Origin: a virus
Virus record (IMG/VR): IMGVR_UViG_3300028666_000033
Span: 1-64,000 of that record
Length of the DNA stretch: 64,000 nucleotides
Reading direction: 5' to 3' (one strand)
Shown piece by piece: positions 33,236-51,453 of the stretch; positions within the stretch are counted from its first letter, which is position 1; every line of letters begins with the position of its first letter. The position numbers were made by a program, and so were the translations under genes. The notes beneath the pieces are model-generated. The model made no database searches. It was not told the DNA's origin and saw nothing but the letters and a program-made list of their open reading frames with translations.

Positions 33236-36200
33236 TTAGTTGGTACCGGTGGTTACGCCGGAGATGGAGACGGGAAGAACGCCCTTCATGACGAAGAACG
33301 CCTGGGGGTACACGATTTTCACATCCGCGTACACATAGATCAGCAGGCCAGCCTGCAAGTTCCCAGCGAAGGTCTGGTCCAGACGCACCTCAACCTGATC
33401 GCTCAGGCCGATGTACATATACTGCCAGTCGCCACCAAAGACATAGGACGAGTTGGTGCTGGTCCCTTCAACGACATTGGTCGGAATCTGGTTGGAGATC
33501 GCATATGGCATCGCCATGATCTCACGCTCGGCTGCGGCACGCCACGCAGGACGCAGCAGAGGATTGCCCAGAGTGTCAGTCGCCAGCGTAAAGGCGCGGC
33601 TGATCTGGCTGTGGAGTGCGATACCGCGACGTGACCCGTCATCATAGGGCACGTTGGCATCGTCCAGCAAACCAAACGCCTGACCAATATCCGTGAACTG
33701 AGGAATACGCCCGTTCCCGCCCATGTCATAGGTCTGAGCCGATGGTGTGTTCAGGATACCGACGATTTCCATACCGCCGCCGGACACGAGCGCACCGCCC
33801 GTACCAAGCAAAGCAGCCTTGTCGATCTTCAAGGCAATCGACTTCGCCATCTGGTTGCGCAACTGCGACTCGGCTTGTGGAGTCATATTTGCTTCAACGT
33901 TGAAGGGGACCTTCACCAGGCTTGAGACACCGTGCGGGTACAACGTAACCGTGCGGTACCCAGGCTGGCTGTCAGAGACGGCCTGATTCTCACCAACCCA
34001 TTGCGCATCGGGCGCTGAGTTCATGATAGGAACGGTCAGGACGTTCGTGCCCTGCATGTCGATGTGCTCAGCCCCAAGCTGATAACAAACGACTTTGGCA
34101 CGCAGCGGGTCCAACACGACTGGAGAAATCTCCTGGTGCAGGATATAACCACCGTTTGGACCCGAAGCGGAGGACATTGCCTTTTCCGCGCCGATCACAA
34201 AACGAGGACGTTCCATCCGCGCGATGCGCTTCAGGTCGGCATACACACCAGCCAGAGGCGTTTTGGTGATGCCAGTGTTTTGATTGATGCCCTTCTGGGC
34301 GATTGAACCAGTCATATATGGCCCCACTGACTTTGAACCACCGCCGCTTGATAAGTGACGGCTAAGGACGGAATAGTTGTACGGTGCTGGATCGCTCATC
34401 GTCGCGGTAGGAACATCGTCCTTTTCGCTTGACATCGCAGCGCTGTACAGGTTGTTGAGGTGGCTGGTCACATCTTCGGCCTTGCTATCTTCGGGCATAC
34501 CAAGTGCCTTGATCAGATCCGGGTGAGCTTTGCCTTCGGTATTAATCGCTGCAATGTGGTTGTCCATTGCACCGCGTACCGCAGTAGGCTCCGGTTCACA
34601 GCCATACATCTGTGCCAGGGCGTGCAGGGTTGATTCGGGCTGCTCGTCGGCATCGAAGTCGTCATTTGCATCATTGACTTCTTCGAGACCGTCCTTTGCA
34701 GCGTCTTCCTTCTGCTCTTCCTGGTCTTCCTTCTCGTCTTCTTTATCCATTTTTCCCTCTCTTATTTCTGCTTTTGTGGCTTCCTCAAGCGTGTCAGTCG
34801 CCTCCCGCTCCTGCATCACACTCTTCAAAGCCAGTTCCAAACTCTTGGCGGCAAGCACGGGGCCAAGTCCCGGTTCGGCAGGGGTGCGAGTAAGGCTGCA
34901 TCCCGCTAACGGCCACAATCCCAGATGTCCGTCAGCGGGGTCATACCCCTGCTGCGCATAATGGGAAAGGCTGTCACTAGAGTAGGCAAACACACCGTTC
35001 GCTGCGTCTTTCGCAGTGCGGACGTAAAGTGGATGGTCGGTGTGGAGAGCGTGCTCTCCCCAGATTCCCCGTGGGTACACCTTTACCAGGGTGCGTTGCC
35101 CAATAGGGTCCCCGCCGTAATCGGGGTTTTTGCCGTGTTCCATCCACAGAGGCGCGTTCGGGTAGTAATCCGCAAACGTTTTGGTCATGTCATCAAAAAA
35201 GGTATCCTGCAAATCGAGATTTTCAGGATCCGTGAAAAGCATCATCCAGCCCTCAACCGAGGTCGGTAGACCATCGACTGCCTTCGAGCCAATCATTGAG
35301 GCACGGTTGCAAGCACCCTGCGCTGCCAGCGTAGCCTTAACGTCATCCCCGGTTTCTTGCATCACCTGATCGTAGACTTTTGCCCACAGGCTAAAGTCTT
35401 TCTCGCTCAGATCGGATGGCATTTTGCCAGACAGATAAGCCGCAACCTTTGCCTTATCCTCTTTGGACAGGCCAAGTTCAGCCGCGCGTGCCCGAATGCG
35501 GGAACGAACTGTTGGCTTGTCAGCATCGGGAATGTCGGCACGATTACCGTGCGGAGGGTTAGGTCCCATCGCTGCGGCTGCCAGCAACACATGTCGAGCG
35601 TCTGGCATCGGCAGTTTCCACGAAGATGGTGTGTCCTTATCGGGCACATAACCATACGTGTCAGGATTGGCATCCTTGCCTGCTGCTTCTTCCTCTGGCG
35701 CTTCACCGTAGAAGTAGGCATTGAAGTCTTCTGAGCCACGAGGATGATGAGCCTTTTCGCCTGCCACTTCATCGACTGCTGTTTCAGTCTCAGCAGGCGC
35801 ATCGGAGATCTCTTCGATCACTTCCTCATCTGGCTCAGACTTGGTAGCAACGGGCACTTCCCCGTGCGCATGGGCAATGGCTTCTTCGCGTGTGGCGTAG
35901 CCTTCTTCAGGAGAACGCACACCGGAAGTCATGTCCAGAACGCGGTATTTACCGTCGGTCTTGCTCTTTACAATTTTCACTGTCAAGGACTTCTTTCCTT
36001 TCCCGCCGGATAGCGGAATGGTGTAATCCCCTGCCTCTCCATAGGATTCCCAGAGACTGTCAAAGGTCACAGGGACAGGTTGGAGTGGGATTGTCGGGGT
36101 AGGCATCTCTTTATCGATATAGGCCAACGTCATATGCGGCGTGTAGCCATGAGTCTCCAGCGGATCGGCATCCGCACCTTTCAGGAAAGCAACCAGTGCC

Positions 36201-36613
36201 TGCCGGAAACGTGGAAGGTCAGGGCAATCGAAGTTCAGGTAGATGCAGTCCTTATCAGGCGCATCCATGAACCGACCAATGCCGTTCAGAGTGCCACTGA
36301 GCGCAGGCCAGCCCTGTGCGAACTTAGTCAGTTCGGACTCCAGCGCTTCCTCATCTGGCATCCAACCGGGATCATCAGTGCTGCCCAGATAGGCCAGCGT
36401 GACATGCATTTCATCGACTGGCATCAGGCAGTCTTCTGGTAGTCCAGCGCCCTTCGCCAGTGCGATCAGATGTTGGGCAATAACAGGCGGAATCTTGAAC
36501 GCGATCATGATTCCGTCCTGGTGGTCAGCATCCTTTGCCGGGATACCAATGGTAGAACGGAGAACATAACCGCCTGCTGCCCCTGTCGCGCTGCTCATCG
36601 CTTTGGCCGTCAT
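33236..36613 (-). CDS. Capsid polyprotein: 2H phosphoesterase, maturation protease, scaffold, HK97-like major capsid protein
   Basis: 1,125 residues with, in order: (a) 30-200, a 2H phosphoesterase/2'-5' RNA ligase-like domain with HVTLAYLG (His70) and HMTLAYID (His160); (b) 330-400, a WKLPMPDARHVLLAAAAMG DUF6582-like helical region; (c) 450-590, a capsid maturation protease-like domain with WMEHG (His493), VFAYSSD (Ser545) and SLTRTPAEPG; (d) 600-740, a very acidic scaffold-like coil; (e) from about 811, the major capsid protein with KAMSSASGPNGGYIL. The N-terminus repeats that element (KAMSSATGAAGGYVL, 4-18). Capsid proteins are usually separate from the protease, so proteolytic processing is expected. 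ATG overlaps the upstream stop. Confidence 0.85.
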   Translation of the reverse strand: MTAKAMSSATGAAGGYVLRSTIGIPAKDADHQDGIMIAFKIPPVIAQHLIALAKGAGLPEDCLMPVDEMHVTLAYLGSTDDPGWMPDEEALESELTKFAQGWPALSGTLNGIGRFMDAPDKDCIYLNFDCPDLPRFRQALVAFLKGADADPLETHGYTPHMTLAYIDKEMPTPTIPLQPVPVTFDSLWESYGEAGDYTIPLSGGKGKKSLTVKIVKSKTDGKYRVLDMTSGVRSPEEGYATREEAIAHAHGEVPVATKSEPDEEVIEEISDAPAETETAVDEVAGEKAHHPRGSEDFNAYFYGEAPEEEAAGKDANPDTYGYVPDKDTPSSWKLPMPDARHVLLAAAAMGPNPPHGNRADIPDADKPTVRSRIRARAAELGLSKEDKAKVAAYLSGKMPSDLSEKDFSLWAKVYDQVMQETGDDVKATLAAQGACNRASMIGSKAVDGLPTSVEGWMMLFTDPENLDLQDTFFDDMTKTFADYYPNAPLWMEHGKNPDYGGDPIGQRTLVKVYPRGIWGEHALHTDHPLYVRTAKDAANGVFAYSSDSLSHYAQQGYDPADGHLGLWPLAGCSLTRTPAEPGLGPVLAAKSLELALKSVMQEREATDTLEEATKAEIREGKMDKEDEKEDQEEQKEDAAKDGLEEVNDANDDFDADEQPESTLHALAQMYGCEPEPTAVRGAMDNHIAAINTEGKAHPDLIKALGMPEDSKAEDVTSHLNNLYSAAMSSEKDDVPTATMSDPAPYNYSVLSRHLSSGGGSKSVGPYMTGSIAQKGINQNTGITKTPLAGVYADLKRIARMERPRFVIGAEKAMSSASGPNGGYILHQEISPVVLDPLRAKVVCYQLGAEHIDMQGTNVLTVPIMNSAPDAQWVGENQAVSDSQPGYRTVTLYPHGVSSLVKVPFNVEANMTPQAESQLRNQMAKSIALKIDKAALLGTGGALVSGGGMEIVGILNTPSAQTYDMGGNGRIPQFTDIGQAFGLLDDANVPYDDGSRRGIALHSQISRAFTLATDTLGNPLLRPAWRAAAEREIMAMPYAISNQIPTNVVEGTSTNSSYVFGGDWQYMYIGLSDQVEVRLDQTFAGNLQAGLLIYVYADVKIVYPQAFFVMKGVLPVSISGVTTGTN

Positions 36614-37155
36614 GATTGGAAAGCTCCCAACGCTTCGTCCAGCGCTTCAAGTAACATGTCTTCGACCAGATCTGCAATCTCATTCTCAGCGTCCTCGAAG
36701 TCGTTGCCCCAGCCTGTATTCTCATGGCCTGGAACAGCATCTGGACCGTAGACCGCCTGCGCGTAGTTGTCACCCTTCCAGTCCACAGCGTCATTCTCTA
36801 TGGTCAGGAAAGTATCATTGGCACTGGTGTTTTCGGAGACGACCCAACTGCTTTCCAGTTTGTCGGTGCGGTCCCACTGTCCACCGTTCGGGTCCCAGTC
36901 CTGTCCAGGGATCTGCCCGGTTCTCTTCATCCAGAAATACCAGTTGCGACTGGGAAGGGTTGCGAAATCAAAGGGATGCACAACATCACCAGGTGGAGGG
37001 GCAAAGCGGTCATTGACCACTTCCACCACTGCCTCATGGATGGGACCATGCACAGCTTCGTAGATTGGTTCGCGGATGGCAGCGACCTTCTGGCGAATGT
37101 CACGCAGAACATCTACAGCGACTGAGGGGTTGTACTCCACGCTGAAGAAACTCAT
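36610..37155 (-). CDS. Hypothetical head-region protein, 181 aa
   Basis: Between portal and capsid genes with ATGA overlaps on both sides. N-terminal helices (VLRDIRQKVAAIREPIYEAV), a Trp/Tyr-rich middle, and an acidic helical C-terminus (EIADLVEDMLLEALDEAL). Could be a minor head protein; no family recognised. Confidence 0.6.
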   Translation of the reverse strand: MSFFSVEYNPSVAVDVLRDIRQKVAAIREPIYEAVHGPIHEAVVEVVNDRFAPPPGDVVHPFDFATLPSRNWYFWMKRTGQIPGQDWDPNGGQWDRTDKLESSWVVSENTSANDTFLTIENDAVDWKGDNYAQAVYGPDAVPGHENTGWGNDFEDAENEIADLVEDMLLEALDEALGAFQS

Positions 37156-39512
37156 ATCGCCACCGCCTCAGTGTCAATGACCATATTGTGCTCATGGTCA
37201 TGATGGTCATGTGACTTTGTGCCTGCGATGGGTACGCCTGCCAGTGAACCATTGGCCGGTTCAGTTGTGTCATCGAGCGTACACAGACAGTTAATCCCCG
37301 TGCAGATACAACTATCGGAGCGGGGATAGATTCCATATTTGAGCCAGGTACGCGCACGATGCACCTGCCCGTCAGCACCAGAACACGTTTCGCAGTGGTC
37401 TTTCGTGCCGCCAAGCGTAAATTTCTTCATGCCGTTCATCTTGCCGTACATGTTGCCCAGTATCTTCATGCCCTGTAGACCCTTATTGATCCACAGTTCA
37501 ATTCGACTAAGCATGGCATTACGGGCTGCTGAAAACTCAGGGGTCTCCCTGAGCGGAATCACATTGCGATACATGTCGTTTGCCAGCGCAGTCCAGTAAC
37601 TGCGTTCCTGCTTTGTTTCCAGATCGAGCGCTGACTTTTCTTCATCGGTCATCTCAGCGGGATCTGTACCCGCTTCCTGCATTCCGTTCTTAAACGCATT
37701 CAGGAAAGCCATCTCAATTTCGCTACGCCCTGCTACTCCGAACTGATTGCGATTCAAGTTTCCCTGGAAAGCATCGGTCATGAGTTCATATAGAGCAGTG
37801 CGATACTGTGCCTCGGTGTCCTCGTAGCCTTTAACCGCCTGCACCCGGATGGCATTCCAGATTGATTCCGACGGTTCTTCACCGGAAAGCAGGAAACGAC
37901 CAAACGCTACTGCATGGGCGGGTAGAGAGTCGCTCTTAAATGCATAATTTCTGCCCTTGCGCTCAATGAGAACACGCCAGTTCTTCAACTCTTTGTGCTG
38001 GGCATCGGGCAGGAACGGAATAGGATCGACACTTTTGCCTGTTGGTGCGGTAGGTGCAGTCGCTTCGGTAGATGCGCCCACTTCCGCAGCACGTGGAGTG
38101 CTTTCGCCTGTGCGGGATGGCTTATCGGGCTTAGCATTTTCTCCACCGGAAACCATGCCTGGATTACCAGGGGCCACACGCCAGTAGTTCTGCATTTCAG
38201 CGGATGGCACTGGAATGCCGCCGATAAGGTACAGACCTGTCAGGTTTTCGTCTACATTCAGCCCCAGTGTTTTCTGAGCATTTGCCAGATCCAGAACACC
38301 GTCCTTAAGCTGCTTGCTCACGGTATCCGTGCGGGATGAGATATCCTCGTCCAGGCCACGTACACGCTTGAAGGTGGGGACAATGCGCCATTCAGGATTG
38401 AGTGGCTTGGCAACCTGCTCAGTGAAGATGTCGGCATAGCGTTCTGACTGCGGGACCAGCCAGCTAATGAGCCATTCACGCTTCTGGTCGTAGAACTTTG
38501 TGCCCTGCGCACGCTGCGCCTGACGTGGCTCAATAAGTTCAAGTGGAACGCGCAGGATACGCAGACAGGCATCACGCGCCTGGTCGGTCAGGTTGGGCAT
38601 TCCCAGCTTATCGAAGTCTTGCTGGAATTTCAGCATTTCCCAACGTGTGGGTAGAACAACCGTGCGACCTGCATTGGCTGCGCCCTGATACATCCGGCGC
38701 AGGTATTCACTCAGTTCGAGTTTCTGGTCAGGACCAGGGACATAACTCGACCCGTCCGCAGGCTGAATAACAAAGGATGGCATCGCCATGTTGCGAAAGA
38801 ACATCAATTGCGTGGCTGTGATCTCTGTCTCGGTAGCAGCCTGCGCATAAGCGACCATCAGCGGACCCGTGCCGCCAAAGTCTTCAAAGAAGTCAATGTT
38901 ATGGAAATAAACAGTGTCTTCCGGCGGCAACCAGTCCAGATCTGGTTCAAGCTCGCTGCCCCAGACCGGACGGATATGGAAACCGCCCAGACCGCGTGAA
39001 GTATCGGTCTCACGGCGGAAGAAGTTATTGTTAATCCACTGAAACCCGTCGAGAATGCCAGACTGAGTCTTCAACCGACGCAGCAACACTTCGCCATAGC
39101 AGCAGTAGGACGTTTCAGACCGCTCAATAATGCTCTGGAAGTTAGACTGGAATGCCGCCTGAATGCCCTGAGCGCGAGGGGTGAAGAATTTGGGATCTCC
39201 CTCTTCGAGCAGTTCTCCAGCGGCATTGGCGATCTTAAAGTCAACCTGGCGCAGCGACTCAGCGCGGAGTTCAATGGCAGAACGTGCTGTAACTGCTGTC
39301 CTGAACAAATGTGCGATCTCGCTGTAGGAGACCTGCGGACGTAGCAGTGCGACTTCCTGATTCAGGTAAGTCTTGATAGCGCTGCCGCTGTTTTCCATGA
39401 CGTTGAAGGGCAGGTCATTCAGGTCCAGTTCAAAGCGATTCTTGCGAATCGTTTGCGTGATCTGCTTTGATCGATTCTTTTTGCCCTGGAAGTGTCGATT
39501 ACGGTGACTCAT
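37152..39512 (-). CDS. Portal protein with C-terminal MuF-like domain
   Basis: 786 residues; start at 39512 gives an ATGA overlap with the terminase. Residues about 40-430 are portal-like (AIKTYLNQEVALLRPQVSY, LLRRLKTQSGILDGFQWI). A Pro/Thr linker follows. The C-terminal part has a MuF-type cysteine cluster, DHCETCSGADGQ then CICTGINCLC, with WLKYGIYPRSD between. The very end is a metal-binding-like HDHHDHEH. Portal-MuF fusions are known; the His-rich tail is unusual. Confidence 0.85.
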   Translation of the reverse strand: MSHRNRHFQGKKNRSKQITQTIRKNRFELDLNDLPFNVMENSGSAIKTYLNQEVALLRPQVSYSEIAHLFRTAVTARSAIELRAESLRQVDFKIANAAGELLEEGDPKFFTPRAQGIQAAFQSNFQSIIERSETSYCCYGEVLLRRLKTQSGILDGFQWINNNFFRRETDTSRGLGGFHIRPVWGSELEPDLDWLPPEDTVYFHNIDFFEDFGGTGPLMVAYAQAATETEITATQLMFFRNMAMPSFVIQPADGSSYVPGPDQKLELSEYLRRMYQGAANAGRTVVLPTRWEMLKFQQDFDKLGMPNLTDQARDACLRILRVPLELIEPRQAQRAQGTKFYDQKREWLISWLVPQSERYADIFTEQVAKPLNPEWRIVPTFKRVRGLDEDISSRTDTVSKQLKDGVLDLANAQKTLGLNVDENLTGLYLIGGIPVPSAEMQNYWRVAPGNPGMVSGGENAKPDKPSRTGESTPRAAEVGASTEATAPTAPTGKSVDPIPFLPDAQHKELKNWRVLIERKGRNYAFKSDSLPAHAVAFGRFLLSGEEPSESIWNAIRVQAVKGYEDTEAQYRTALYELMTDAFQGNLNRNQFGVAGRSEIEMAFLNAFKNGMQEAGTDPAEMTDEEKSALDLETKQERSYWTALANDMYRNVIPLRETPEFSAARNAMLSRIELWINKGLQGMKILGNMYGKMNGMKKFTLGGTKDHCETCSGADGQVHRARTWLKYGIYPRSDSCICTGINCLCTLDDTTEPANGSLAGVPIAGTKSHDHHDHEHNMVIDTEAVAI

Positions 39513-40867
39513 AAGAATATGTACTCCGCAGTGGGCCATGCAACATCAATGGGCGGAGGAGGCGGAAACTGGACATTTCCATAAAGCACATCAGCGGGGA
39601 TAATGCCCTGCGAGGCGTGCGGGATATCGATAAGTTCCGGTGCCCACTTGGGAACACCGTAGGTTGCGCCATGATAGGCCAGCGCTAGAGACATCACCAT
39701 ATCGTCATTCGAGTCACGGGGACCGGAATAACGGAATGCGCCAGATGGCAGTCGCTCCATCTGGAATGCATGGAGTTCGTCCAGAAGAAGCTGACCTATC
39801 GGCTGACCGTCAATGGCTTCACCCTTGTGAAGAACCTGTAGCTGACGATTGTCGAAGGCGGCAGCCAGTGCCTCAATGATGAGCGCCTTACTGCTACCAC
39901 TGGTAGTGAAGGGCATAATGGGCAAGCCAGTGTCCATGAGACTTTCCATGAACGCCAGGTTGGTATTCTGCTCGACAATGATGCCTGCTGCGTGGAAAAG
40001 ATTTGCCAGTGCAACAATGCGACCTTTTTGCAGCTTGTAGTCCACATGGTTGGCCCGGTCAATATAACAAACCGACATCAACGTTACGTCGATGACGGTG
40101 AACACGGAAAAGTCATTGGTCTTGGCAAGGTCAACGCCGATGACGTAGGTATGACCGGCCTTTGGCTGAGCCTGAACAAAGCCCTGCGCCATCTCTTCCA
40201 GATTGCGGAACACAGATCCTGCATCCGAAATGAACTCGGCCAGGTATTCCTGCGAGAAAATGTTGACGGGCGTAGTTTTACGTGCATCTTCAATTTCACT
40301 TGCAGGCAGGAACGGATTGTCGGAAGAAGGCTTGTGCCAGCTCTCCCAGTCGGGAAAAGCGTCGTTTTTGCCCAGTCGATACAGATTCCAGAACCAGTTG
40401 TAACCCTTTGGCGTTGAGGCAAACAGGGCACGACCCTGCGTGGTCATGAGCATGGGTCGGATAACTTCTTGCCAGGTGTCACCAGAGGGAACAACCGCAG
40501 CCTCGTCAATGAGCACGAGATCGTATTCGCGTCCACGAGGACCATCTGGGTTGTCCAGTGACCACATTTCCACGACTGCACCGTTGATGGTCTCAATACG
40601 GTGTTCGTCTTCCTTCTTTTCCTTCGTGATGGGCGCAAGCATGTTCTTGACAATGCGCCACATGTCTGCCAGCATCTTGTAGGTCGGGCACATGTAGGCA
40701 ATGCGCTTGGCCTCGGACACTGCTCGAAGTATTTCAGCACGAAGGGTAACGGTCTTGCCCCATCGTCGACCACAGTCCAGAACACGGAACCGGGCAGGCG
40801 ACTCATAGACTTCTATCTGTCCAGGATGAAGGGCGAGACCCAGATAGACATTAATCCTGTTGTCCAT
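39509..40867 (-). CDS. terL: Terminase large subunit (packaging ATPase and nuclease)
   Basis: Packages DNA into proheads. Start at 40867 (AGGTGG before ATG), overlapping terS by 17 bases. Walker A is CGRRWGKT near residue 32-39, Walker B is YDLVLIDEAAVV near 112-123, and motif III is FASTPKG. The RNase H-like nuclease has VIGVDLAKTNDFS and DSNDDMVMSLALAY. At 452 residues it is complete. A second, split terminase lies at 42964 and 50094. Confidence 0.95.
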   Translation of the reverse strand: MDNRINVYLGLALHPGQIEVYESPARFRVLDCGRRWGKTVTLRAEILRAVSEAKRIAYMCPTYKMLADMWRIVKNMLAPITKEKKEDEHRIETINGAVVEMWSLDNPDGPRGREYDLVLIDEAAVVPSGDTWQEVIRPMLMTTQGRALFASTPKGYNWFWNLYRLGKNDAFPDWESWHKPSSDNPFLPASEIEDARKTTPVNIFSQEYLAEFISDAGSVFRNLEEMAQGFVQAQPKAGHTYVIGVDLAKTNDFSVFTVIDVTLMSVCYIDRANHVDYKLQKGRIVALANLFHAAGIIVEQNTNLAFMESLMDTGLPIMPFTTSGSSKALIIEALAAAFDNRQLQVLHKGEAIDGQPIGQLLLDELHAFQMERLPSGAFRYSGPRDSNDDMVMSLALAYHGATYGVPKWAPELIDIPHASQGIIPADVLYGNVQFPPPPPIDVAWPTAEYIFL

Positions 40868-41348
40868 CGACCACCTGTGCATCTATGACTCTGGTGGTCT
40901 CTTCATCCTTCTTTTGCGGAGCGCCCAGAACGAAATTGATAACAATGTCGCCCCGTCCAGATTCCTGCTTCGGGCTGTACTTCTCTGGCCGGTTGCCTTT
41001 CAGGTGAATTTCAATCGCCTTGATTTTGGCTCCGGCAGGCGTATCCGGGGCAAGCGCCATGTCAACCAGCGCATCTTCGACATCATCTACAATGGACTCT
41101 TGAACATCATCCATAAGCTGGCGGAAGGCTGGATCAGTCTCACGCCAACGATAGACCATAAACTTTTGTAGATCCGCTGCTTTACAGGCTTTACCGAGGT
41201 GCGCCCGAAACTCGGAATAGGTCCGCAGAAAGCGTTCTTTCTGGTCCTGAATCTCAGCAAGCCGTTCTTCTTCCACATTGAATGCAGGAGAAAACGACTT
41301 GATATCTCGGTCTGGAGTTTGATCTAAGCGCTGCTGCCCGTCAGTCAC
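40851..41348 (-). CDS. Terminase small subunit-like protein
   Basis: 165 residues. An N-terminal helix-turn-helix-like part (HLGKACKAADLQKFMVYRWR) suits packaging-site recognition, followed by an acidic helix (VQESIVDDVEDALVDMAL) for oligomerisation. The C-terminus links to the large subunit by overlap. GTG is used as start; the start has no strong ribosome-binding site. Function called from HTH plus position. Confidence 0.8.
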   Translation of the reverse strand: MTDGQQRLDQTPDRDIKSFSPAFNVEEERLAEIQDQKERFLRTYSEFRAHLGKACKAADLQKFMVYRWRETDPAFRQLMDDVQESIVDDVEDALVDMALAPDTPAGAKIKAIEIHLKGNRPEKYSPKQESGRGDIVINFVLGAPQKKDEETTRVIDAQVVDGQQD

Positions 41349-42563: not shown

Positions 42564-42967
42564 TTGTATCCTTTGCTACTATCGTTTATGCTGCTAATTT
42601 CACTGGATATTGTGGCAATATAGGCGCGGCCATCCTTAAATTTCACAATTACTTTTGTGCCCGGATATTTACCAGCCGCAACCCCCAATGGATCGTCAAT
42701 GGAAATAGAGATAAAGGAGCCTTTTCGCATAAACCGTACAAAGGTTTTCCCTTCGGAATCTGGGTCGTAAATATAGCCTTCCGCAGTCCCTAATATGCCA
42801 ACCTCACCTTCCTCAGTGTCTGGCGTATCGGATGGCGGACTCCACCAGGGCAAATAGAGATCAGGCCACATTTCGCGCTGATCGAAGTACCGATCCCGCT
42901 TCGACTGCCACTTGTGCTGCCGTGCATCTCGCCCCAGTCGGCGGATGGCTTCCAGTAAGGTTGTCAT
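42560..42967 (-). CDS. Hypothetical protein, 135 aa
   Basis: N-terminal basic helical part (LLEAIRRLGRDARQHKW), then Trp/Pro-rich segment, then a beta-rich domain (VIVKFKDGRAYIATIS). It lies between a terminase-like ATPase and the Ntn hydrolase with ATGA overlaps. No family recognised. Confidence 0.6.
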   Translation of the reverse strand: MTTLLEAIRRLGRDARQHKWQSKRDRYFDQREMWPDLYLPWWSPPSDTPDTEEGEVGILGTAEGYIYDPDSEGKTFVRFMRKGSFISISIDDPLGVAAGKYPGTKVIVKFKDGRAYIATISSEISSINDSSKGYK

Positions 42968-43572
42968 GATATCCTGTAAGGACTTTCCATGACAGGCGGA
43001 TCATCCCCGGTAAGTTCAACAAACTCTCCGAGCATATCCGCGCGAAACCCGACCTCGGAGGAGGACTCCACCACACTGCGAAGATCCTCGGCATTAAGGA
43101 ACGGGTTGGTTTTGATGGGGAACATGAAGAACGCTGCATCGAGAAAGTGCTTCTTGCTCTGGGCGAACTTCTTCAACTCGATAAACAGGTCGGTCTGGTG
43201 CTTATGGCTTGGAACAGGCGTACCGACTGCCAGCAGTTTCCCGTCTGGGATTAAGCACGGCAAAAGTTCATCGAGCAAATAAGGAGTCATGGTCGCAGGC
43301 TCATTGATGATGACGAGATCGAACTGATGTCCCCTGTATTTATCCTCGTTTTTCTCCATGTAGACAATTTTTCTGCCGCTGCTTACCACCATTGTTGTTT
43401 TGAAGAATTTGTTCATCCCGTGATTTGGACCAACAAAGAGGATTTCACGAGCATCGGATATCTCTATGCAAAATCTGCATAGTGCATCTTTGCCCCAGCG
43501 CCGACTGGTAGACACAACACGGTAGCGATCTCTGGAGTCCAGGACTAATTGCTGTCCAGTATGCGGGATCAT
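42964..43572 (-). CDS. Second terminase large subunit, ATPase half only
   Basis: 202 residues matching just the ATPase domain of a large terminase: Walker A STSRRWGKD near 22-30, Walker B FDLVIINEPA with Asn in place of the usual Asp, motif III AVGTPVPSH, and FPIKTNPFLNAED followed by the end of the domain at GEFVE. The nuclease domain is missing. The matching nuclease half is at 50094-50642. It may be a separate two-chain motor or remnant; the Asn before Glu may affect catalysis. Confidence 0.82.
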   Translation of the reverse strand: MIPHTGQQLVLDSRDRYRVVSTSRRWGKDALCRFCIEISDAREILFVGPNHGMNKFFKTTMVVSSGRKIVYMEKNEDKYRGHQFDLVIINEPATMTPYLLDELLPCLIPDGKLLAVGTPVPSHKHQTDLFIELKKFAQSKKHFLDAAFFMFPIKTNPFLNAEDLRSVVESSSEVGFRADMLGEFVELTGDDPPVMESPYRIS

Positions 43573-43835
43573 TCTGTTGCCGCCTTGATCTCCTGATCGA
43601 TCTGATCTGCCAGTGAACGCAATTCATTGGCGCGACTTTTGACCTGCATCCACGAAGCAATGGAATTAAGCAATGGTTCGTAATTGAAGTCGGGCAAAAT
43701 CGCTGGTCCGTTAGGCAAAAAACGGGGAAGTGAATTCCCGCTGGCAACATCATTTAGTAGATGGAAAGCCCGAATTTCCTCCTCGGTGCAGGTTACAATA
43801 ATCTCACCCTGAGACGTATAGCCAATTTGTTTCAT
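43569..43835 (-). CDS. Hypothetical protein, 88 aa
   Basis: Small acidic protein with a helical N-half (CTEEEIRAFHLLNDVA) and a coiled-coil-like C-half (VKSRANELRSLADQIDQEI). It joins the aminotransferase and the split terminase ATPase by ATGA overlaps. Function unknown. Confidence 0.6.
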   Translation of the reverse strand: MKQIGYTSQGEIIVTCTEEEIRAFHLLNDVASGNSLPRFLPNGPAILPDFNYEPLLNSIASWMQVKSRANELRSLADQIDQEIKAATE

Positions 43836-44959
43836 TTCGTTTTCACTCCTTCAATAGCCTTCCGTAGTTCTTCAGCAACTCTGCCCACCTCTACCGATCT
43901 CATCTTCAAGTGCATGGGGAGCGACAATAGACGGTTACTGGCCTCGGTTGCTCTGGGCAAGTATCCGTGATACATCGGATACTGCGTGTTATCGACATAA
44001 TGTACACCCGTTCCAATGCCAGCCAACTTCAGCGCATTGACCACTTCATTGCGGTTATCTACCAGTACCTGATACAGATGGCGAGACGGGACGCAATCTG
44101 GGGACATGGGCACGGTCTCGCAGACACCTGCTAACAGCTTGTCATACAGGGCTGCGATGCTCCGTCGATGCTGATTGTCATCGTCCAGATATTGCAGGGC
44201 AACCAGTCCCATTGCTGCCATGATACTGTTGCCGTTGTATTTCCAGCCAACATTCTCCACGTCATATTCCCATGAGTATCCGGTGCCGGAAGACCTTGCA
44301 TAGGTATCCTTGTCGATGCCCATCCAGGACAATTTGCGCGACTGAGCATCCATTTCAGGATCTGCCCAACAGATCATGCCAGAATCGCCCGTCGGTAGAT
44401 TTTTCACTGCCTGAAAGCTGAACACGGAAACATCAGCGGTTGCACCAACATGATCGCCATCTAGCCAGCGCGTTCCTGCCATGTGAGCAGCGTCCAGAAT
44501 GAGCTTTAACCCATGAGATTGGCATATCTCCCAGATTTTGGCGTACTGTCCTACATTGCCTCCAAGTCCTACGAAAACTACGGCTCTGGTGCGCGGGGTG
44601 ATTTGCTCCTCTACACTGTCGGGGTCCAGACACATGTACTGGTCAACATCTGCGAATACAGGTGTTAATCGTTCATACAAAATAGGATGATTCGTGCTGA
44701 CGAAGGTGATCGGCGTGGTGATCACTTCATCACCATCGGACCATCCATAACTGAGTTGGTGCATTGCCAAATGAAGTCCTGCTGTCGCACTATTCAAGAA
44801 GCACGCATTTGGCAGTCCAGTGTATTTCTTCCACGCTTCTTCAAACTCAACAGTCTTGTAACCGATGCCCGTCCAGCCCTTTTCGAGACACTGGCGAATC
44901 TCGGCAAGCACTTCTTCGGTGCGAAAGACGGGGGTGAAAAGTTGGATGGAATCGCTCAT
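43832..44959 (-). CDS. DegT/DnrJ/EryC1-type PLP sugar aminotransferase
   Basis: Transfers an amino group to a nucleotide-activated keto-sugar. 375 residues of the expected size. Lines include LNSATAGLHLAMHQL (PLP phosphate region), LILDAAHMAG (Asp for the PLP ring) and FSFQAVKNLPTGDSG with the Lys that forms the Schiff base. It opens the sugar-related cassette 43.8-49.6 kb. Its product may be an amino sugar attached by the following glycosyltransferases. Confidence 0.88.
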   Translation of the reverse strand: MSDSIQLFTPVFRTEEVLAEIRQCLEKGWTGIGYKTVEFEEAWKKYTGLPNACFLNSATAGLHLAMHQLSYGWSDGDEVITTPITFVSTNHPILYERLTPVFADVDQYMCLDPDSVEEQITPRTRAVVFVGLGGNVGQYAKIWEICQSHGLKLILDAAHMAGTRWLDGDHVGATADVSVFSFQAVKNLPTGDSGMICWADPEMDAQSRKLSWMGIDKDTYARSSGTGYSWEYDVENVGWKYNGNSIMAAMGLVALQYLDDDNQHRRSIAALYDKLLAGVCETVPMSPDCVPSRHLYQVLVDNRNEVVNALKLAGIGTGVHYVDNTQYPMYHGYLPRATEASNRLLSLPMHLKMRSVEVGRVAEELRKAIEGVKTK

Positions 44960-45213
44960 TTGATCACCTGCGAATTACCACTGCCACCAACAATATTCTG
45001 TGTCGTACTGATCGGCGGACCATCGTAGCAGTCAATGATGGTCGATTGTCGTCCTGTACCATGCCAGAACGCCCACTTAATGAAGTGTCGATGTTCCATC
45101 CAGAACTCGATCAATTCTTCAGCAGCCTCTTTGCCATCGTTGCCATGCGGATACATTTCACTGGCGTTATCGACCAGTTCCTGAAATTTTTTGCGAAGTT
45201 GTGCAGGAGTCAT
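44956..45213 (-). CDS. Hypothetical protein, 85 aa
   Basis: Starts with AGAGGAAAAACAACGAA before ATG, and ends in ATGA with the aminotransferase. N-terminal helix (PAQLRKKFQELVDNASE), aromatic centre (HFIKWAFWHGTG). Role unknown. Confidence 0.6.
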   Translation of the reverse strand: MTPAQLRKKFQELVDNASEMYPHGNDGKEAAEELIEFWMEHRHFIKWAFWHGTGRQSTIIDCYDGPPISTTQNIVGGSGNSQVIK

Positions 45214-45344
45214 TTCGTTGTTTTTCCTCTCATTTTGCGGTAAAATACGAATTACTGTGGTCTAGGGTAGCTCCCGAAAAGGTGGTTTCGTCACCGCCCT
45301 GACCCATATACATCTTGACGAACTAGCACAAGACGAGGTGCTAA

Positions 45345-46136
45345 GTGATCTACCAGCCGTCTCCAATTGGTCGGATATGCAAAAAGTGCAACGAATGGAA
45401 ACCGCGAGCAAGGCTCGTAAAGGAAAAACGCTGTCTCTGGGGCGTACATGCCCTTTGCCTTGACTGTGTTGCTGCGAGAATAAGAGAAGACAGACAGAAA
45501 AATCCTCTCAAATACCGTATTTATGAGCGGAAATTTAGAAAAGAACATCCAGATCGGTATCGCACATATCAAAGAAGCCATAACGAACAGAGAAACGCAG
45601 GAAACCGTCGCCGCCGCGCTCTCAATCCACAACATGCTAGAGACTATCACAATAGATGGCGAAAGAAGAATCGTGAACTTGTCAGACGGTATGAACAAGC
45701 GACTAATAGCCGTCATCCTGATCGCGTAAAGCAAAAATCGCAGGTGAGAAGATCCCGAAAGCATAACCTTCCCTCCGAATTCACTGAAAAACATTGGTTG
45801 GAATGTCTTCAATACTTCAACAATAGATGCGCATACTGCGGTAGACCACAAGGACTGTGGCATTCTCTTTCGCAAGATCACTTTATCCCAGTTAAAAAAG
45901 AGGGCGGTTATATTCCAGGCAACATCGTACCAGCATGTCATGGTATAGATGGTTGCAATGAGAGCAAACACGACAAGGATGCCGTTGATTGGCTGACTGC
46001 AAAGTACGGAAAGCGAACAAGCAAATTGATCTTGCAAAGAATATTTGCCTATTTTCAATGGGTCGAGCATTCTAGCGCGTTACCCTCAACTGAAAATCCC
46101 GCGCAGGTTCATGCCACACACCAGGGACAATCGTAA
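45345..46136 (+). CDS. HNH homing-type endonuclease, opposite strand
   Basis: 263 residues with an N-terminal zinc finger (CKKCNEWK...LCLDC), a long basic repeat-like middle rich in Arg/Tyr, and a C-terminal HNH domain: CAYCGRPQG, DHFIPVKKEGGY, NIVPACHGIDGCN. GTG start after GAGGTG. It is the only plus-strand gene in a minus-strand cassette and overlaps the end of the methyltransferase gene by 65 bases. This points to a recently inserted mobile nuclease gene. Confidence 0.85.
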   Translation: MIYQPSPIGRICKKCNEWKPRARLVKEKRCLWGVHALCLDCVAARIREDRQKNPLKYRIYERKFRKEHPDRYRTYQRSHNEQRNAGNRRRRALNPQHARDYHNRWRKKNRELVRRYEQATNSRHPDRVKQKSQVRRSRKHNLPSEFTEKHWLECLQYFNNRCAYCGRPQGLWHSLSQDHFIPVKKEGGYIPGNIVPACHGIDGCNESKHDKDAVDWLTAKYGKRTSKLILQRIFAYFQWVEHSSALPSTENPAQVHATHQGQS

Positions 46137-46590
46137 TGTTTTCACGATTGAACCCGGCATCCACTACCATATCTGACAGTGACTGCGGCGTATAACCCCA
46201 GCGGTGTCCCATTAACGGTTCATCGGGCGAACTATTTCCGAAGACTCCCCACCATCCGAACTGCTCAACCGATCTGCCATCTGGTGGTTGAATAACACCT
46301 GCGATCACTTTGCAGCAGTATGCCAGATCGGGCTGCTCAAGGATCAGAAGACCTTCAGGCAGCAAAACATCATAGCATTGCTTGAGCACAATCAAAGCGT
46401 CCTGTTTGAAGAAATGCTCGATAATGTGCGATGCTACGACTTCTGTGAATTTTTGTGACATCACTTCGTCGGGTAACGGCGGTAGCATAGCGCAAATATC
46501 AGGTTCGTTGGCAGGATTCCCATCAATGGTTACATATTCCTGCCAATGCCATTCTCCGCTGCCTATGAGCAACTTCGTCTTATTTATCAC
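46072..46590 (-). CDS. SAM-dependent methyltransferase-like protein
   Basis: 172 residues. VVASHIIEHF is the class I methyltransferase type-11 post-motif II pattern, followed by LPEGLLILEQPD. The N-terminus is short for the fold (IGSGEWHWQEY in place of a full motif I), as in sugar-linked methyltransferases of phage cassettes. GTG start after AAAGGAAGACC. Probably methylates a sugar. Confidence 0.72.
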   Translation of the reverse strand: MINKTKLLIGSGEWHWQEYVTIDGNPANEPDICAMLPPLPDEVMSQKFTEVVASHIIEHFFKQDALIVLKQCYDVLLPEGLLILEQPDLAYCCKVIAGVIQPPDGRSVEQFGWWGVFGNSSPDEPLMGHRWGYTPQSLSDMVVDAGFNRENITIVPGVWHEPARDFQLRVTR

Positions 46591-46834
46591 GGTCTTCCTT
46601 TCCCTTCACTAATTCTTTCCAGATTACAGGTTGTGCTGTCAAATCTTCACAGATATAAAAATGTCCGCTGCCGTCCTGCACCATCACCCTGTTACTGGGA
46701 GGTGATATCTTGAAAATAGCCAACTCTGCAAACGATGGCATTGTCATCGGCAAGATAATCGTTCTCAGTGGCTGATATATCATGCAGCCCCACCGATAGT
46801 CTCCTGCGACATAGTATGGTTTCATTGATCTCAT
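46580..46834 (-). CDS. Hypothetical protein, 84 aa
   Basis: ATG at 46834 overlaps the glycosyltransferase stop. Beta-rich, ending in a charged tail (LVKGKEDRDK). Nothing recognised beyond its place in the cassette. Confidence 0.55.
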   Translation of the reverse strand: MRSMKPYYVAGDYRWGCMIYQPLRTIILPMTMPSFAELAIFKISPPSNRVMVQDGSGHFYICEDLTAQPVIWKELVKGKEDRDK

Positions 46835-47730
46835 GGCTTGAAACCCGCAAGCACCTTTATCCACTTGAGCGCCACCTTGTCCGCTGTGAATTGCTGTGCA
46901 GCGACCCATCCCAACTCAGCATCCGACTCGCGCAGGGTTTTGTCGTTTGCGCTGGACAGAGCTGCGCACCATTGCTCAGTAGTCTCTGCCATCCAGAACA
47001 ATCCTATCTCCTGATAAGAAGGGATAGGCGTTCCTACCACTGGTAGACCGAGGCCATAGGCTTTCAGCAGTCGGTTGGCACTCTTGGTCATCACCCAGTT
47101 GACCGACCATTGGGGACTGCCAAACACGAACGGGAAGATCGCCATATCATGCTCGACCATCAATTGGTCTACTGTATCAGCGGACCACTGCTGCGCATTC
47201 CAGCCTTCTTTAGGCAGTTGATCCGTCTGCTCGGAGAAATGCGGATTGTTGAGATCCGTAATAATGGTCAGATTAATGCCCAGTGTACGGCAAGCACGGG
47301 CTGCATAGCATAGATGATACATGTTCTGAGTATTGCCGACCCAGACAGCGCTATTCAAGTTGTCTGCGTGTACTTTCTTGCGAGGGCTGGTCGGCTCAGT
47401 ATCCAGACAATCTGGAATAACGATTGCCCCAGGGAAATGAGCGAGCTTGGACTCAGTGTCCACTGTGATCTGATCCACCTCGGCAGGGATAGGCGTGGAA
47501 ATAAGATCGTCAATGTCGAAAATGATACGCTTCCCCGCAGCCTTGAACATCTTCATTGAGCCATCCTGCGGCCAGACCTTCTGATACACCACAACGTCAC
47601 AATCCGATGAATTGTAACTGTTGAAGGTAACGGTATGCCCCATCGCTCGGAGCGCTGTAGCGACCTTCCAGACACGGAGTCGACTACTGGCAAAGTCTGT
47701 GCTGCCTGCGGGGAAATAGTTAATGCGCAT
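46831..47730 (-). CDS. Glycosyltransferase, GT-B fold (GT4-like)
   Basis: 299 residues. N-terminal MRINYFPAGSTDFASSRLRVWK resembles the acceptor-binding domain of GT-B enzymes. The C-terminal donor site has SANRLLKAYGLGLPVVGTPI in the place of the E(x7)E motif. It is shorter than classic GT4 (about 350-400). Likely transfers a sugar to the virion or host surface. Confidence 0.78.
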   Translation of the reverse strand: MRINYFPAGSTDFASSRLRVWKVATALRAMGHTVTFNSYNSSDCDVVVYQKVWPQDGSMKMFKAAGKRIIFDIDDLISTPIPAEVDQITVDTESKLAHFPGAIVIPDCLDTEPTSPRKKVHADNLNSAVWVGNTQNMYHLCYAARACRTLGINLTIITDLNNPHFSEQTDQLPKEGWNAQQWSADTVDQLMVEHDMAIFPFVFGSPQWSVNWVMTKSANRLLKAYGLGLPVVGTPIPSYQEIGLFWMAETTEQWCAALSSANDKTLRESDAELGWVAAQQFTADKVALKWIKVLAGFKP

Positions 47731-48103
47731 TGTTGTCTCTCAATTCACTGAACAACTGGTCAATGGCACCAGCTTCGATATAAACGCTAGCTTTTACTGA
47801 CTCTGCCATTCTCCGATAAGCATCCTCGTAAGTATCTGCCCACATACAATCAATGAAGTCTGGCTGCTTACCTTCCTTCCAGATGTCCCATGCGATGCGA
47901 CGTTCAATGCCCGATTCTGCTATCTCTAGCGGAGGTGCTGTATATGTATGCAATGTCCACCAGTTAACTTCAAGCGGTTTAATTTGCGCCACATTGTAAG
48001 GGAAAGCGATGCCGCGATAATCGAAGTCGCCGCGGTTGGTTCCCACATGGAATGTCCACTGCTTTGAAATAAGAAGGATGGCAGGAGCCAGTTTGATCTT
48101 CAT
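47720..48103 (-). CDS. Hypothetical protein, 127 aa
   Basis: Trp/Tyr-rich, alpha/beta (LEVNWWTLHTYTAPPLE, ADTYEDAYRRMAESVK). It overlaps both neighbours in the glycosyltransferase cassette. No family recognised. Confidence 0.58.
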   Translation of the reverse strand: MKIKLAPAILLISKQWTFHVGTNRGDFDYRGIAFPYNVAQIKPLEVNWWTLHTYTAPPLEIAESGIERRIAWDIWKEGKQPDFIDCMWADTYEDAYRRMAESVKASVYIEAGAIDQLFSELRDNNAH

Positions 48104-48597
48104 CGTCTGCCTACAAACAATCTATCCGACATGGGATCATAAGCGGCAAAAATATCGAGATAGTCATATGGATTAGAGGGGTAGCCATGATAATTACCAA
48201 CCATATAACGTTCAAATCGGATAGTGCGAACACTAACACTGGGACTAACACCGAAGTTGAGATCGATCATGCCAATATGTTCGATGCTCATTGGTCGCCA
48301 GTTGGCGGGCCGGTCCGCCGGATGGTAGCGATTATCGACCAGCCACTTGTGAAACCGCTTGACGCAGCGCAAATAGAACGCCTTCCAGCCTTTTGCGGGA
48401 TACCAGTTATTCCGATAAGGACGCATCATTGAATCGTCCTGTACAGGGATCTGTATCTCACGGGGAGAATTGTACACAAGTTCAATGGTCGTCTTGTCAT
48501 TCAACTGTGGAATTTTGCTGCGCATTTCGCGCCACAGATAAAAGGCAAGCGGACCATCTCCGATAACTGACTGCAAAGGATGAACGGGCGCTCTCAT
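48100..48597 (-). CDS. Hypothetical protein, 165 aa
   Basis: Basic, aromatic protein (GWKAFYLRCVKRFHKWL) with ATGA overlaps on both sides. Located between two glycosyltransferase genes; a role in sugar transfer is only inferred. Confidence 0.58.
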   Translation of the reverse strand: MRAPVHPLQSVIGDGPLAFYLWREMRSKIPQLNDKTTIELVYNSPREIQIPVQDDSMMRPYRNNWYPAKGWKAFYLRCVKRFHKWLVDNRYHPADRPANWRPMSIEHIGMIDLNFGVSPSVSVRTIRFERYMVGNYHGYPSNPYDYLDIFAAYDPMSDRLFVGRR

Positions 48598-49559
48598 GCC
48601 TTTACCCCCACATGCTCCAGTATATCCATAACACGCTGACGACTTCGTTCAAAGGTGAATTGTTCAACCATTCGATATTGTTCAGCAACTGCATTCCCAT
48701 AATAACTGTTGCTGCTGAGCAATTCAGCCATCACGCTAGCCTGCGCAGGGTCAAAGGGGTCAATATGTAGTCCTGGCGCATCATTGCACCACTCAGAACT
48801 GATCACAGGTGTACCGACCATCGCGCACAGAACCTGCTGCCGACCATAGCTATGGCGCGTGTAAATGTCCACGCACATCTGCGCCTTAGCCGTAATCGCC
48901 ACAAAATAAGGCCATGCGACGTGCCCCAGAAACTCAGCCTTGAGGCCAGCGATACGCGCATAGTCCGAGGTCCAGTCCCGCTGCGCTGCATACAGCACCC
49001 GACAGCCTGTTTTGCGCTGGATGGCAGCCACTGCCGCAACGTTATTGGCAGTATTGTTGTCAATGTCGATGCTGTGGTCGAGCGTGAGAATGTAGTCTTC
49101 TTTGGGCAAGTCACGATAAGGCAAGAAGAATTCTGTGTCACCGATAGGGGATGGGAGATAAAACGTTGGTTTGTTCAATAGCTCGCCATACACATTGCAA
49201 TCTGCATGTGTACGCCCCCCAATGGCATCTGCCATGCTCATCTGGTGCAGCATAAACATCCAGTCTGGACGAGTCAACACAATATCCACGCAGGCATCCG
49301 GGCAGGCAATACAGTAACAGGTCGGGTTGACCGCTTTTATCTGCTCAATGTGACGCGAGTCTGTGGTGTGGAATAAGTTAACTATAACGATCCTTGCTTT
49401 CCGCACCGCATCTGGCATTGTCCCTGGTTGCCGTGTATCCCAGCGTTGCCACGGCAAATCCAACACGGTAGACCAATTAGAGACGCTTACGGTAGGCGGA
49501 CCACCTGGTCCGCTTGTAACGAACTCGCCCCACACAAGCGCAAGATCACTCAGTTGCAT
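48594..49559 (-). CDS. Glycosyltransferase-like protein
   Basis: 321 residues, GT-B-like. The second half has YILTLDHSIDIDNNT, RVLYAAQRDW, and HSYGRQQVLCAMVGTPVISS, the donor-binding pattern with G(T/V)PVI. It is part of the cassette of sugar genes and overlaps the next gene by 14 bases. Confidence 0.7.
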   Translation of the reverse strand: MQLSDLALVWGEFVTSGPGGPPTVSVSNWSTVLDLPWQRWDTRQPGTMPDAVRKARIVIVNLFHTTDSRHIEQIKAVNPTCYCIACPDACVDIVLTRPDWMFMLHQMSMADAIGGRTHADCNVYGELLNKPTFYLPSPIGDTEFFLPYRDLPKEDYILTLDHSIDIDNNTANNVAAVAAIQRKTGCRVLYAAQRDWTSDYARIAGLKAEFLGHVAWPYFVAITAKAQMCVDIYTRHSYGRQQVLCAMVGTPVISSEWCNDAPGLHIDPFDPAQASVMAELLSSNSYYGNAVAEQYRMVEQFTFERSRQRVMDILEHVGVKA

Positions 49560-49842
49560 TGTTAACCACCTTGTTCATTTCTTCCCGCACAATAAGGCGG
49601 ATCATTCTGGTCAAGTCAACCGACTTCTCCAGCGGGACATAATTTGCCGCGTAATCAGTGGAGATGCCCAGTGCCACCACGCCCGGAATGCTTGCCCTCA
49701 TTCTTTGCAAAACAGCATTGATAAGTTCCCCGTCTCGGCCTGCAACAATCCAGACATCATCACCCAGATTGAACATTTTCATCTTTCCCAGGTCGAAGAT
49801 TCCAGGTTGAGTAGCATCAATTGGCTCAGGTAGATCACTCAT
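49546..49842 (-). CDS. Hypothetical protein, 98 aa
   Basis: ATG after AAAGGAATGTTGG. A compact alpha/beta protein with DDVWIVAGRDGELINAVL and a C-terminal helix (LTRMIRLIVREEMNKVV). Function unknown. Confidence 0.6.
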   Translation of the reverse strand: MSDLPEPIDATQPGIFDLGKMKMFNLGDDVWIVAGRDGELINAVLQRMRASIPGVVALGISTDYAANYVPLEKSVDLTRMIRLIVREEMNKVVNNATE

Positions 49843-50092
49843 CCAACATTCCTTTCACAACACCCTCAATGTATTTCTTTAAAACTTCATTGTCATTAAG
49901 ATTAAGCACTATTTCCAGCGAGAAGGGCAAGACTACCATTCGCACACCGATAGGAGCCAGCCTTTCCTGGTACACACTCACAACATGATCGAGCTTTTCA
50001 TGATATAGTGGCGATGCACCGAGCGGTAGTCCAAACAGTATCAGCGTCGGGCTAACAACGATAACCGAAAGCAGAATGTCAGGCGTAGCCAT
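49835..50092 (-). CDS. Hypothetical protein, 85 aa
   Basis: ATG at 50092 (AAGG ten bases upstream). Hydrophobic N-terminus (DILLSVIVVSPTLILFGLPLG) that may be a membrane or beta segment. Directly after the terminase nuclease half. Not recognised. Confidence 0.55.
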   Translation of the reverse strand: MATPDILLSVIVVSPTLILFGLPLGASPLYHEKLDHVVSVYQERLAPIGVRMVVLPFSLEIVLNLNDNEVLKKYIEGVVKGMLDE

Positions 50093-50093
50093 A

Positions 50094-50642
50094 TTATGCA
50101 AACCTTATCGATAGGCCACCGTGCCGCGTGCCATGCAAAGCCAGTGCGGTAGCCACTACTGTTTCAGTGTTTCTGACGGGCAGAAAATCTCCCTGTCCGC
50201 CAGCGCGGTATTCATAGCCAGATAGCTCATTGATAAGCCCTTCGTCAGGAACAATGCGCAATCGCCCCATATTTAATTCCAGCGCCAGATTATTGAGCAT
50301 GTCGGCTCTGCTTGCCCTGGTCATACGTAGTGGGTACACGGGTAATCCCTCCGATCGCAACGCTTCGATGTTAGGACCGCCAATGCTGGCCGCCTCAACA
50401 TAGATAAGCTGCGGTTTCCATATTTTGTGCAACGCGGATACTCGATCTCGCTGCACTGCATAACCCTCACCTATGGTTCGGTCCAGCGCGACCAGTTGAT
50501 GCGTTGTAGCATCCATAATGGCTACGCCCATACGGTCCATATGGTTTCCCCAGTCCAGCCCGAAGACTATCCGATGACCAACAACAGGCTTATCCTGCGG
50601 CTCAACTCTGGCATATCGTTCTGGATTGGGGAAGAGCCTCAT
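50094..50642 (-). CDS. Second terminase large subunit, nuclease half only
   Basis: 182 residues with the RNase H-like fold of terminase nucleases: VFGLDWGNHMDRMGVAIMD (first Asp), IYVEAASIGGPNIEALR (Glu), and a C-terminal VATALALHG helix where TETVV stands in place of the usual Asp. There is no ATPase domain. It fits as the missing half of the ATPase at 42964-43572. The two lie 6.5 kb apart with sugar genes between. Confidence 0.82.
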   Translation of the reverse strand: MRLFPNPERYARVEPQDKPVVGHRIVFGLDWGNHMDRMGVAIMDATTHQLVALDRTIGEGYAVQRDRVSALHKIWKPQLIYVEAASIGGPNIEALRSEGLPVYPLRMTRASRADMLNNLALELNMGRLRIVPDEGLINELSGYEYRAGGQGDFLPVRNTETVVATALALHGTRHGGLSIRFA

Positions 50643-51268: not shown

Positions 51269-51276
51269 AATTCTCC

Positions 51277-51453
51277 CTATCCTGTAATATGAGCGGTTAA
51301 AATGACGATCCCGAAGAAAAACAGTGCAGCGGCAAGGCTAGCCCAGTCGGGCAGTTTCATCTTGCCACCAATCCAGCGAACCAATCCGCCTACGAGGGCA
51401 GCAACAAGGCACAACACAATAACAACCGCGGCGACATGCGTATCGACAGTCAT
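51277..51453 (-). CDS. Small two-span membrane protein, 58 aa
   Basis: ATGA overlap with the glycosyltransferase stop. Two hydrophobic segments: VAAVVIVLCLVAALVGGL and WASLAAALFFFGIVIL, with a basic loop (RWIGGKMK). Likely a hairpin inner-membrane protein. It might anchor a glycosyltransferase or work as a small holin-like factor; unknown. Confidence 0.6.
   Translation of the reverse strand: MTVDTHVAAVVIVLCLVAALVGGLVRWIGGKMKLPDWASLAAALFFFGIVILTAHITG

Follow-up and report, generated by a model that had tools for sequence, protein, structure and literature searches.

A 2H phosphoesterase domain joined to a protease-scaffold-capsid polyprotein and its proposed packaging in the phage head

Introduction

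In phage HK97, the delta-domain scaffold is joined to the major capsid protein (MCP) in gp4/gp5, with maturation cleavage at K|S, i.e., the HK97 protease cuts its own MCP after lysine and before serine. In phage lambda, C/Nu3 is a nested protease-scaffold gene with an internal start for the scaffold. The gene described here resembles lambda C/Nu3 in a nested internal start for the scaffold and HK97 gp4/gp5 in a delta-domain scaffold attached to the MCP, but differs from both in that a single gene unites the protease, scaffold and MCP with a further enzyme. Fused protease-capsid genes have been described for the Arthrobacter phage clusters AM, AU and AN and for Rhodococcus phage RRH1 (PMC5513430). 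As in the present case, the capsid maturation protease and the MCP share one gene there; no 2H domain was described for these genes (PMC5513430), whereas one is present here.

Fusions of 2H phosphoesterases to head proteins have been reported as well. For the 2H-MuF and 2H-portal fusions, packaging, injection and an activity as RNase or against nucleotide signals have been proposed, and the idea of a virion-borne 2H enzyme that degrades immune nucleotides has already been published for both (PMC5512222, PMC9503650). In these phage polyvalent proteins the 2H domain is likewise fused to a head protein, but the partners named are MuF and portal; in the present gene, 2H is attached to a protease-scaffold-MCP polyprotein that brings its own maturation protease and has a predicted internal start. 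The anti-CBASS nuclease Acb1 (7t26), for which the base-stacking residues Y12, W74, F107 and W147, plus E141, have been defined, shares the 2H fold and the HxT/HxT active site (PMC9117128). However, Acb1 stands alone, and the polyprotein 2H domain falls short of the cut-off for the Acb1 family. The nearest structures are those of the ThpR/LigT RNA 2',3'-cyclic phosphodiesterases (CPDases; 5h7e, 5ldm), which have both HxT motifs in common with the polyprotein; these are cellular stand-alone enzymes of about 20% identity, whereas here the domain is part of a head protein.

Fused protease-MCP genes (PMC5513430), 2H-portal and 2H-MuF fusions are known. Our searches of the open-access literature found no report of 2H, protease, scaffold and MCP in combination, of such a fusion arising repeatedly or alternating with the portal, or of a conserved internal start, and yielded nothing relevant on virion-packaged Acb1 or on internal starts in protease-capsid fusions. 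For this gene and its relatives, we computed domains, folds, catalytic motifs, recurrence, the internal start signal and motif enrichment.

An enzyme and a capsid module in one gene

The gene lies in a window of 64,000 nucleotides (the whole stretch of DNA analysed here, positions 1 to 64,000 of the IMG/VR record IMGVR_UViG_3300028666_000033). The source record is a 69,311-base virus contig in which portal and terminase genes neighbour the polyprotein gene. According to the ORF list, the polyprotein (1,125 aa) is read from 36613 down to 33236, and its start ATG (36613) overlaps the stop of the upstream gene. The ORF named in the original prediction is real, but its plus-strand numbering had to be reversed, as the gene is on the minus strand. 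Two further IMG/VR contigs from different metagenome accessions carry the same gene with 0 mismatches over 15 kb. Therefore, the fusion is not the error of a single assembly, and an assembly chimera was rejected as its source. Only one 2H domain was found in the whole record; the portal lacks it.

The polyprotein runs from a 2H phosphoesterase through a DUF6582-like stretch, a capsid maturation protease and an acidic scaffold to an HK97-type MCP (Table 1), and the proposed order of 2H domain, protease, scaffold and MCP was borne out by Pfam matches, alignments and AlphaFold models. The HK97-like MCP suspected from the sequence was recognized, above the respective cut-offs, by Phage_capsid (PF05065; residues 821-1110, E=1.2e-27, 97.5 bits vs 24.2) and by TIGR01554 (93.9 bits vs 27.5). 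The acidic scaffold-like region, likewise proposed at the outset, corresponds to residues 622-810 on the basis of its composition, its position and a phrog_10 match spanning residues 596-1117.

Pfam gave no match on residues 444-600, Peptidase_S78 included. An hhalign comparison of this region with protease segments from six further proteins reached a probability of 98.7 (E=4e-16), and D467, H493 and S545 were invariant over 77 relatives, H493 and S545 being the predicted catalytic residues. The top PDB matches of the protease model (mean pLDDT 86) were all herpesvirus capsid maturation proteases, which points to a herpesvirus-assemblin-like fold, as expected for an S78-type phage protease. 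The maturation protease-like region of the original prediction thus holds up in alignment, in the three invariant residues and in the assemblin-like model; because the Pfam S78 match is absent, we class the protease by fold and active site, without Pfam S78 membership. The DUF6582-like stretch matches phrog_19463, and tblastn also detected it in 9NA gp38 and in a protein of a Klebsiella phage that lies close to the MCP.

At the N-terminus, the tail KAMSSATGAAGGYVLRSTI, predicted to be disordered in the AlphaFold model, is identical to the mature MCP start KAMSSASGPNGGYILHQEI at 12 of 19 positions, and the alignment score of 59 compares with a maximum of 47 in 1,000 shuffles. Such a copy was sought at the N-terminus of the other polyproteins and was absent, i.e., it is confined to the window phage. 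A recent DNA duplication was rejected as the source of the tail (31/57 bases identical). The tail may be an MCP arm that was copied, or may provide a second site of cleavage.

Table 1. Coordinates (positions in the window) and basis of the features of the polyprotein gene, with its neighbour and related proteins
Feature	Position	Strand	Basis or remark
Full-length 2H-protease-scaffold-MCP polyprotein gene, 1,125 aa	33236..36613	-	ORF, Pfam; same in two other assemblies
N-terminal tail, residues 4-22, KAMSSATGAAGGYVLRSTI	36548..36604	-	like mature MCP start, residues 811-829
2H phosphoesterase domain, residues 33-202	36008..36517	-	Pfam, AlphaFold, Foldseek
HVT, first catalytic motif, residues 70-72	36398..36406	-	H and T invariant in 66 sequences
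HMT, second catalytic motif, residues 160-162	36128..36136	-	invariant in 66 sequences; within search pattern
DUF6582-like stretch, residues 316-380	35474..35668	-	phrog_19463, E=6.6e-7; tblastn matches; loci L015, L016
Capsid maturation protease, residues 444-600	34814..35284	-	hhalign, invariant residues, herpesvirus protease fold
Internal Shine-Dalgarno AAGAGAGGG and in-frame ATG622, predicted scaffold-MCP start	34748..34770	-	duplex -8.9
Acidic scaffold-like (delta-domain-like) region, residues 622-810	34184..34750	-	composition, position; phrog_10 match 596-1117
HK97-type MCP, residues 811-1125, predicted cleavage near K811	33239..34183	-	Pfam Phage_capsid, TIGR01554
Portal protein, 795 aa, without 2H domain	37152..39539	-	Pfam Phage_portal, E=2.3e-18
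S78 protease-2H proteins with LEVKA / EAKSA repeats			L069, L072, L082, L085, L086, L088, L091

A 2H domain nearer to ThpR/LigT than to Acb1

Single-protein scans of genome contigs, plasmids and phages gave no full-length relative of the polyprotein, and the 2H and protease domains were therefore used as separate queries. PADLOC returned no match. A seed alignment of seven phage and plasmid-prophage 2H domains led to 80 loci in the scan of viral contigs; the second HxT motif was part of the scan pattern, the first lay outside it. The histidine pair of the original prediction (HVT at 70-72, HMT at 160-162) is present, and H70, T72, H160 and T162 were invariant in 66/66 aligned domains. As the first motif lay outside the search pattern, its conservation is no selection effect and provides independent evidence for catalysis.

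The predicted 2H fold itself was corroborated. An AlphaFold model built with the 66-sequence alignment has a core pLDDT of mostly 93-98, with the first 30 residues disordered, and the top PDB matches in Foldseek were the D. radiodurans CPDase (E=4.2e-9) and E. coli LigT (1.0e-8). Pfam 2_5_RNA_ligase2 matched residues 65-169 above the cut-off (E=2e-12). The ThpR/LigT equivalog model TIGR02258 reached 33.3 bits and missed its cut-off of 65.7, and the domain is thus best described, from its sequence, as related to the ThpR/LigT CPDases without equivalog status.

The original prediction had brought in Acb1-type anti-CBASS enzymes, and we weighed a true Acb1 family member that cuts cyclic di- or trinucleotides. 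The shared 2H fold stands: Acb1 (7t26) ranked 17th among the Foldseek matches of the model (E=7.9e-6), and Pfam Acb1 (PF23474) matched residues 34-182 with E=0.0048. This match is below the cut-off, however, since the gathering score of 27 bits was missed with both the whole protein (17.1 bits) and the domain search (21.4 bits), and on these scores we rejected a direct assignment to Acb1. Moreover, profile comparison gave E=0.07 for Acb1 vs E=2.5e-10 for CPDase. Fold and profiles thus point to an enzyme on the ThpR/LigT side, with Acb1 more distant; the label "Acb1-type anti-CBASS" is unsupported, and membership in that family appears improbable to us.

The likeness to ThpR/LigT is as compatible with RNA end processing as with degradation of a signal. 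In a virion-borne RNA repair, host anticodon nucleases would leave tRNAs or mRNAs with 2',3'-cyclic phosphate ends, which the packaged 2H enzyme would open, and a phage RNA ligase expressed post-infection would act alongside it. The closest folds and sequences are indeed RNA 2',3'-cyclic phosphodiesterases, and the window phage has a tRNA-Met as well as an RLIG1-like RNA ligase with a KTDG motif (55523-56155 (-), E=3e-10). Against this, RLIG1 occurred in only 1 of 50 contigs tested, that of the window phage itself, and PF09414 RNA ligase exceeded its cut-off in 2 of 50, one of them a 2H contig, where all of these contigs are fragments; in addition, PMC5512222 never saw this 2H type with RNA ligases. 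Co-occurrence with an RNA ligase was rejected as a general sign of RNA repair for its rarity. As the window phage is exceptional in carrying an RLIG1-like ligase, RNA repair remains a live rival, and the main one, although we regard it as unlikely.

Repeated fusion to head proteins

As in virion-packaged, injected effectors of the polyvalent type, the polyprotein links an enzyme to head proteins. The 2H-profile scan of viral contigs did not require head genes, and it recovered 62 non-redundant 2H ORFs. These included portal matches (17 Phage_portal, 2 Portal_Mu, 2 P23-45 portal), protease matches (8 XkdF, 7 S78, 2 Mu-I), 7 MuF and 6 capsid matches, counts that may overlap within one protein. 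Full 2H-protease-MCP fusions were found at seven loci (L019, L020, L031, L035, L039, L063, L103).

The first protease alignment (A4) had too little conservation for scanning, and a closer subset was scanned instead. With the protease as query, polyproteins bearing 2H were interspersed with polyproteins without it. In a tree of 42 protease-MCP polyproteins, those with 2H occupied at least 5 separate places, and the minimum number of state changes was 7 with portal-2H and portal-ADP-ribosyltransferase states counted, where rows scored as "none" may hide a 2H domain outside the contig. The window phage sits on a long branch and its exact place in the tree is thus unsure.

In the related head modules L099, L104, L106 and L109, the 2H domain sits in the portal. 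None of the loci checked had two 2H ORFs. Against the polyprotein-type profile, the scores of the portal 2H domains were far lower, which suggests that portals and polyproteins acquired their 2H domains separately rather than by a simple move. Another head module related to the 2H carriers encodes a portal that contains both an ADP-ribosyltransferase (E=2.5e-19) and a MuF domain (L108:349-3792). Portal-fused ADP-ribosyltransferases count as injected effectors (PMC9503650), and this supports an equivalent interpretation of 2H. The same kind of fusion, arising several times in unrelated viruses, suggests that the enzyme is a cargo delivered at infection.

The same distribution bears on a role in assembly, in which the 2H domain would act in the prohead, e.g., by clearing prohead RNA, or would have turned structural or regulatory, with no delivery. 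Its place next to protease and scaffold in many fusions agrees with such a role. However, the domain is missing from related polyproteins, its partner switches between portal and MCP and its catalytic motif is strictly conserved, and we consider an assembly function improbable.

A predicted internal start and candidate cleavage sites

Within the gene, the Shine-Dalgarno sequence AAGAGAGGG precedes ATG622, which lies at the scaffold start, just after the protease. Its pairing (-8.9) is the strongest among 37 in-frame ATGs, compared with -6.5 for the gene's own start. The best internal Shine-Dalgarno-ATG pair fell within 115 codons after the protease in 25 of 36 polyprotein genes vs 7.4 expected, and 25 was never reached in 100,000 simulations (maximum 19); as the sequences are partly related, p-values for this start site and for the K[A/S] counts below are optimistic. 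The signal is also present in the distant members L031, L035, L063 and L172. A strong internal start predicts scaffold-MCP (504 residues, about 54 kDa) as the major product, with the 2H form a minor passenger, i.e., most MCP would be made without 2H. The simple polyprotein assumed at first is thus to be revised: a 1:1 product is probably not formed.

We counted K[A/S] in the 60-residue flanks on either side of 2H, a span that takes in some protease-edge residues. Polyproteins had 16 where 7.2 were expected and S78-type fusions 49 (17.4 expected); in C-terminal (portal-type) fusions the excess was mild (48 vs 31.9). The control dipeptides K[GDEN] and R[AS] were not enriched in these flanks. Candidate cleavage sites in the window polyprotein include K4, K258, K444, K590 and K811. 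In actinobacterial S78-2H proteins (Table 1), LEVKA / EAKSA motifs are repeated on both sides of 2H and resemble arrays of maturation cleavage sites. Among cultivable phages, Arthrobacter phage Wheelbite encodes a 2H-protease fusion in gene 18.

Cleavage around 2H could also mean its loss, since the scaffold or delta domain of HK97 type is lost at maturation (PMC4351075, PMC3706429), and 2H, once cut free, could be degraded in the same way. In the extreme, the fusion would be a chance or degenerate one, with 2H as a functionless passenger that is removed and degraded with the scaffold. Yet the fusion is repeated in separate lineages and the catalytic motifs of 2H are invariant, which makes a functionless passenger very improbable.

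Proposed mechanism

The original prediction had 2H released inside the head, for delivery as a counter-defence enzyme or for use in assembly. Packaging inside the head is the part that is supported, by the recurrent portal, protease and MCP fusions, by the ADP-ribosyltransferase in the portal of a related head module and by the K|[A/S] motifs around 2H. Overall, we favour, with some reserve, a virion-packaged, protease-released nucleotide or RNA phosphodiesterase that is active early in the next host.

The mechanism that we infer as the most economical, with its stoichiometry, cleavage, survival in the virion, injection and substrate, would run as follows. The internal start at codon 622 would produce most capsid subunits as scaffold-MCP (504 aa), and the start at 36613 would yield a minority of 1,125-residue chains. 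The C-terminal MCP of such a long chain would enter the same shell, with scaffold, protease and 2H facing the prohead interior. The protease would cleave K|[A/S]-type sites between the domains and the scaffold would be removed, leaving the 2H phosphodiesterase free in the head to pass into the next host with the DNA. There, its substrate would be an RNA or a nucleotide with a 2',3'-cyclic, 2'-5' or 3'-5' phosphodiester, which it would hydrolyse. The likeliest benefit would be to counter, early in infection, immunity based on nucleotide signalling or defence based on RNases; counter-defence against a nucleotide signal is plausible.

If true, this would amount to a built-in, stoichiometry-controlled loading of an enzyme inside the phage head, and would bring an anti-defence or RNA-processing activity into the host at DNA entry, ahead of phage gene expression. 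More speculatively, and rather less confidently than for packaging and release, the capsid gene may be a cargo loader, in which a weaker outer start and a strong inner start serve to load an enzyme and a built-in protease frees it inside the head. The enzyme module, 2H or another effector, could be swapped and could shift between capsid and portal, and head proteins might thus constitute a general platform for the delivery of early counter-defence enzymes. Fusion of an enzyme to a capsid, portal or protease gene would also be a signature by which further injected effectors can be sought.

Further genes of the window phage

Additionally, we noted several other features in the window. A second, short terminase-large-subunit-like ATPase (202 aa; 42964-43572 (-)) lies upstream of the complete terminase gene (39509-40882), at a distance of about 2 kb. 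A ParM-like actin (13478-14602 (+); ALP_N E=4.7e-14, PHROG partition protein) is encoded on the strand opposite to most genes and could indicate a phage-plasmid lifestyle. An HNH endonuclease (695-1261 (-)) has a weak GcrA-like N-terminus, which hints at a possible alphaproteobacterial host. Finally, genes for a DegT-type aminotransferase, glycosyltransferases and a methyltransferase adjoin the packaging genes (43832-52853 (-)), suggesting sugar modification of the virion or the host surface.
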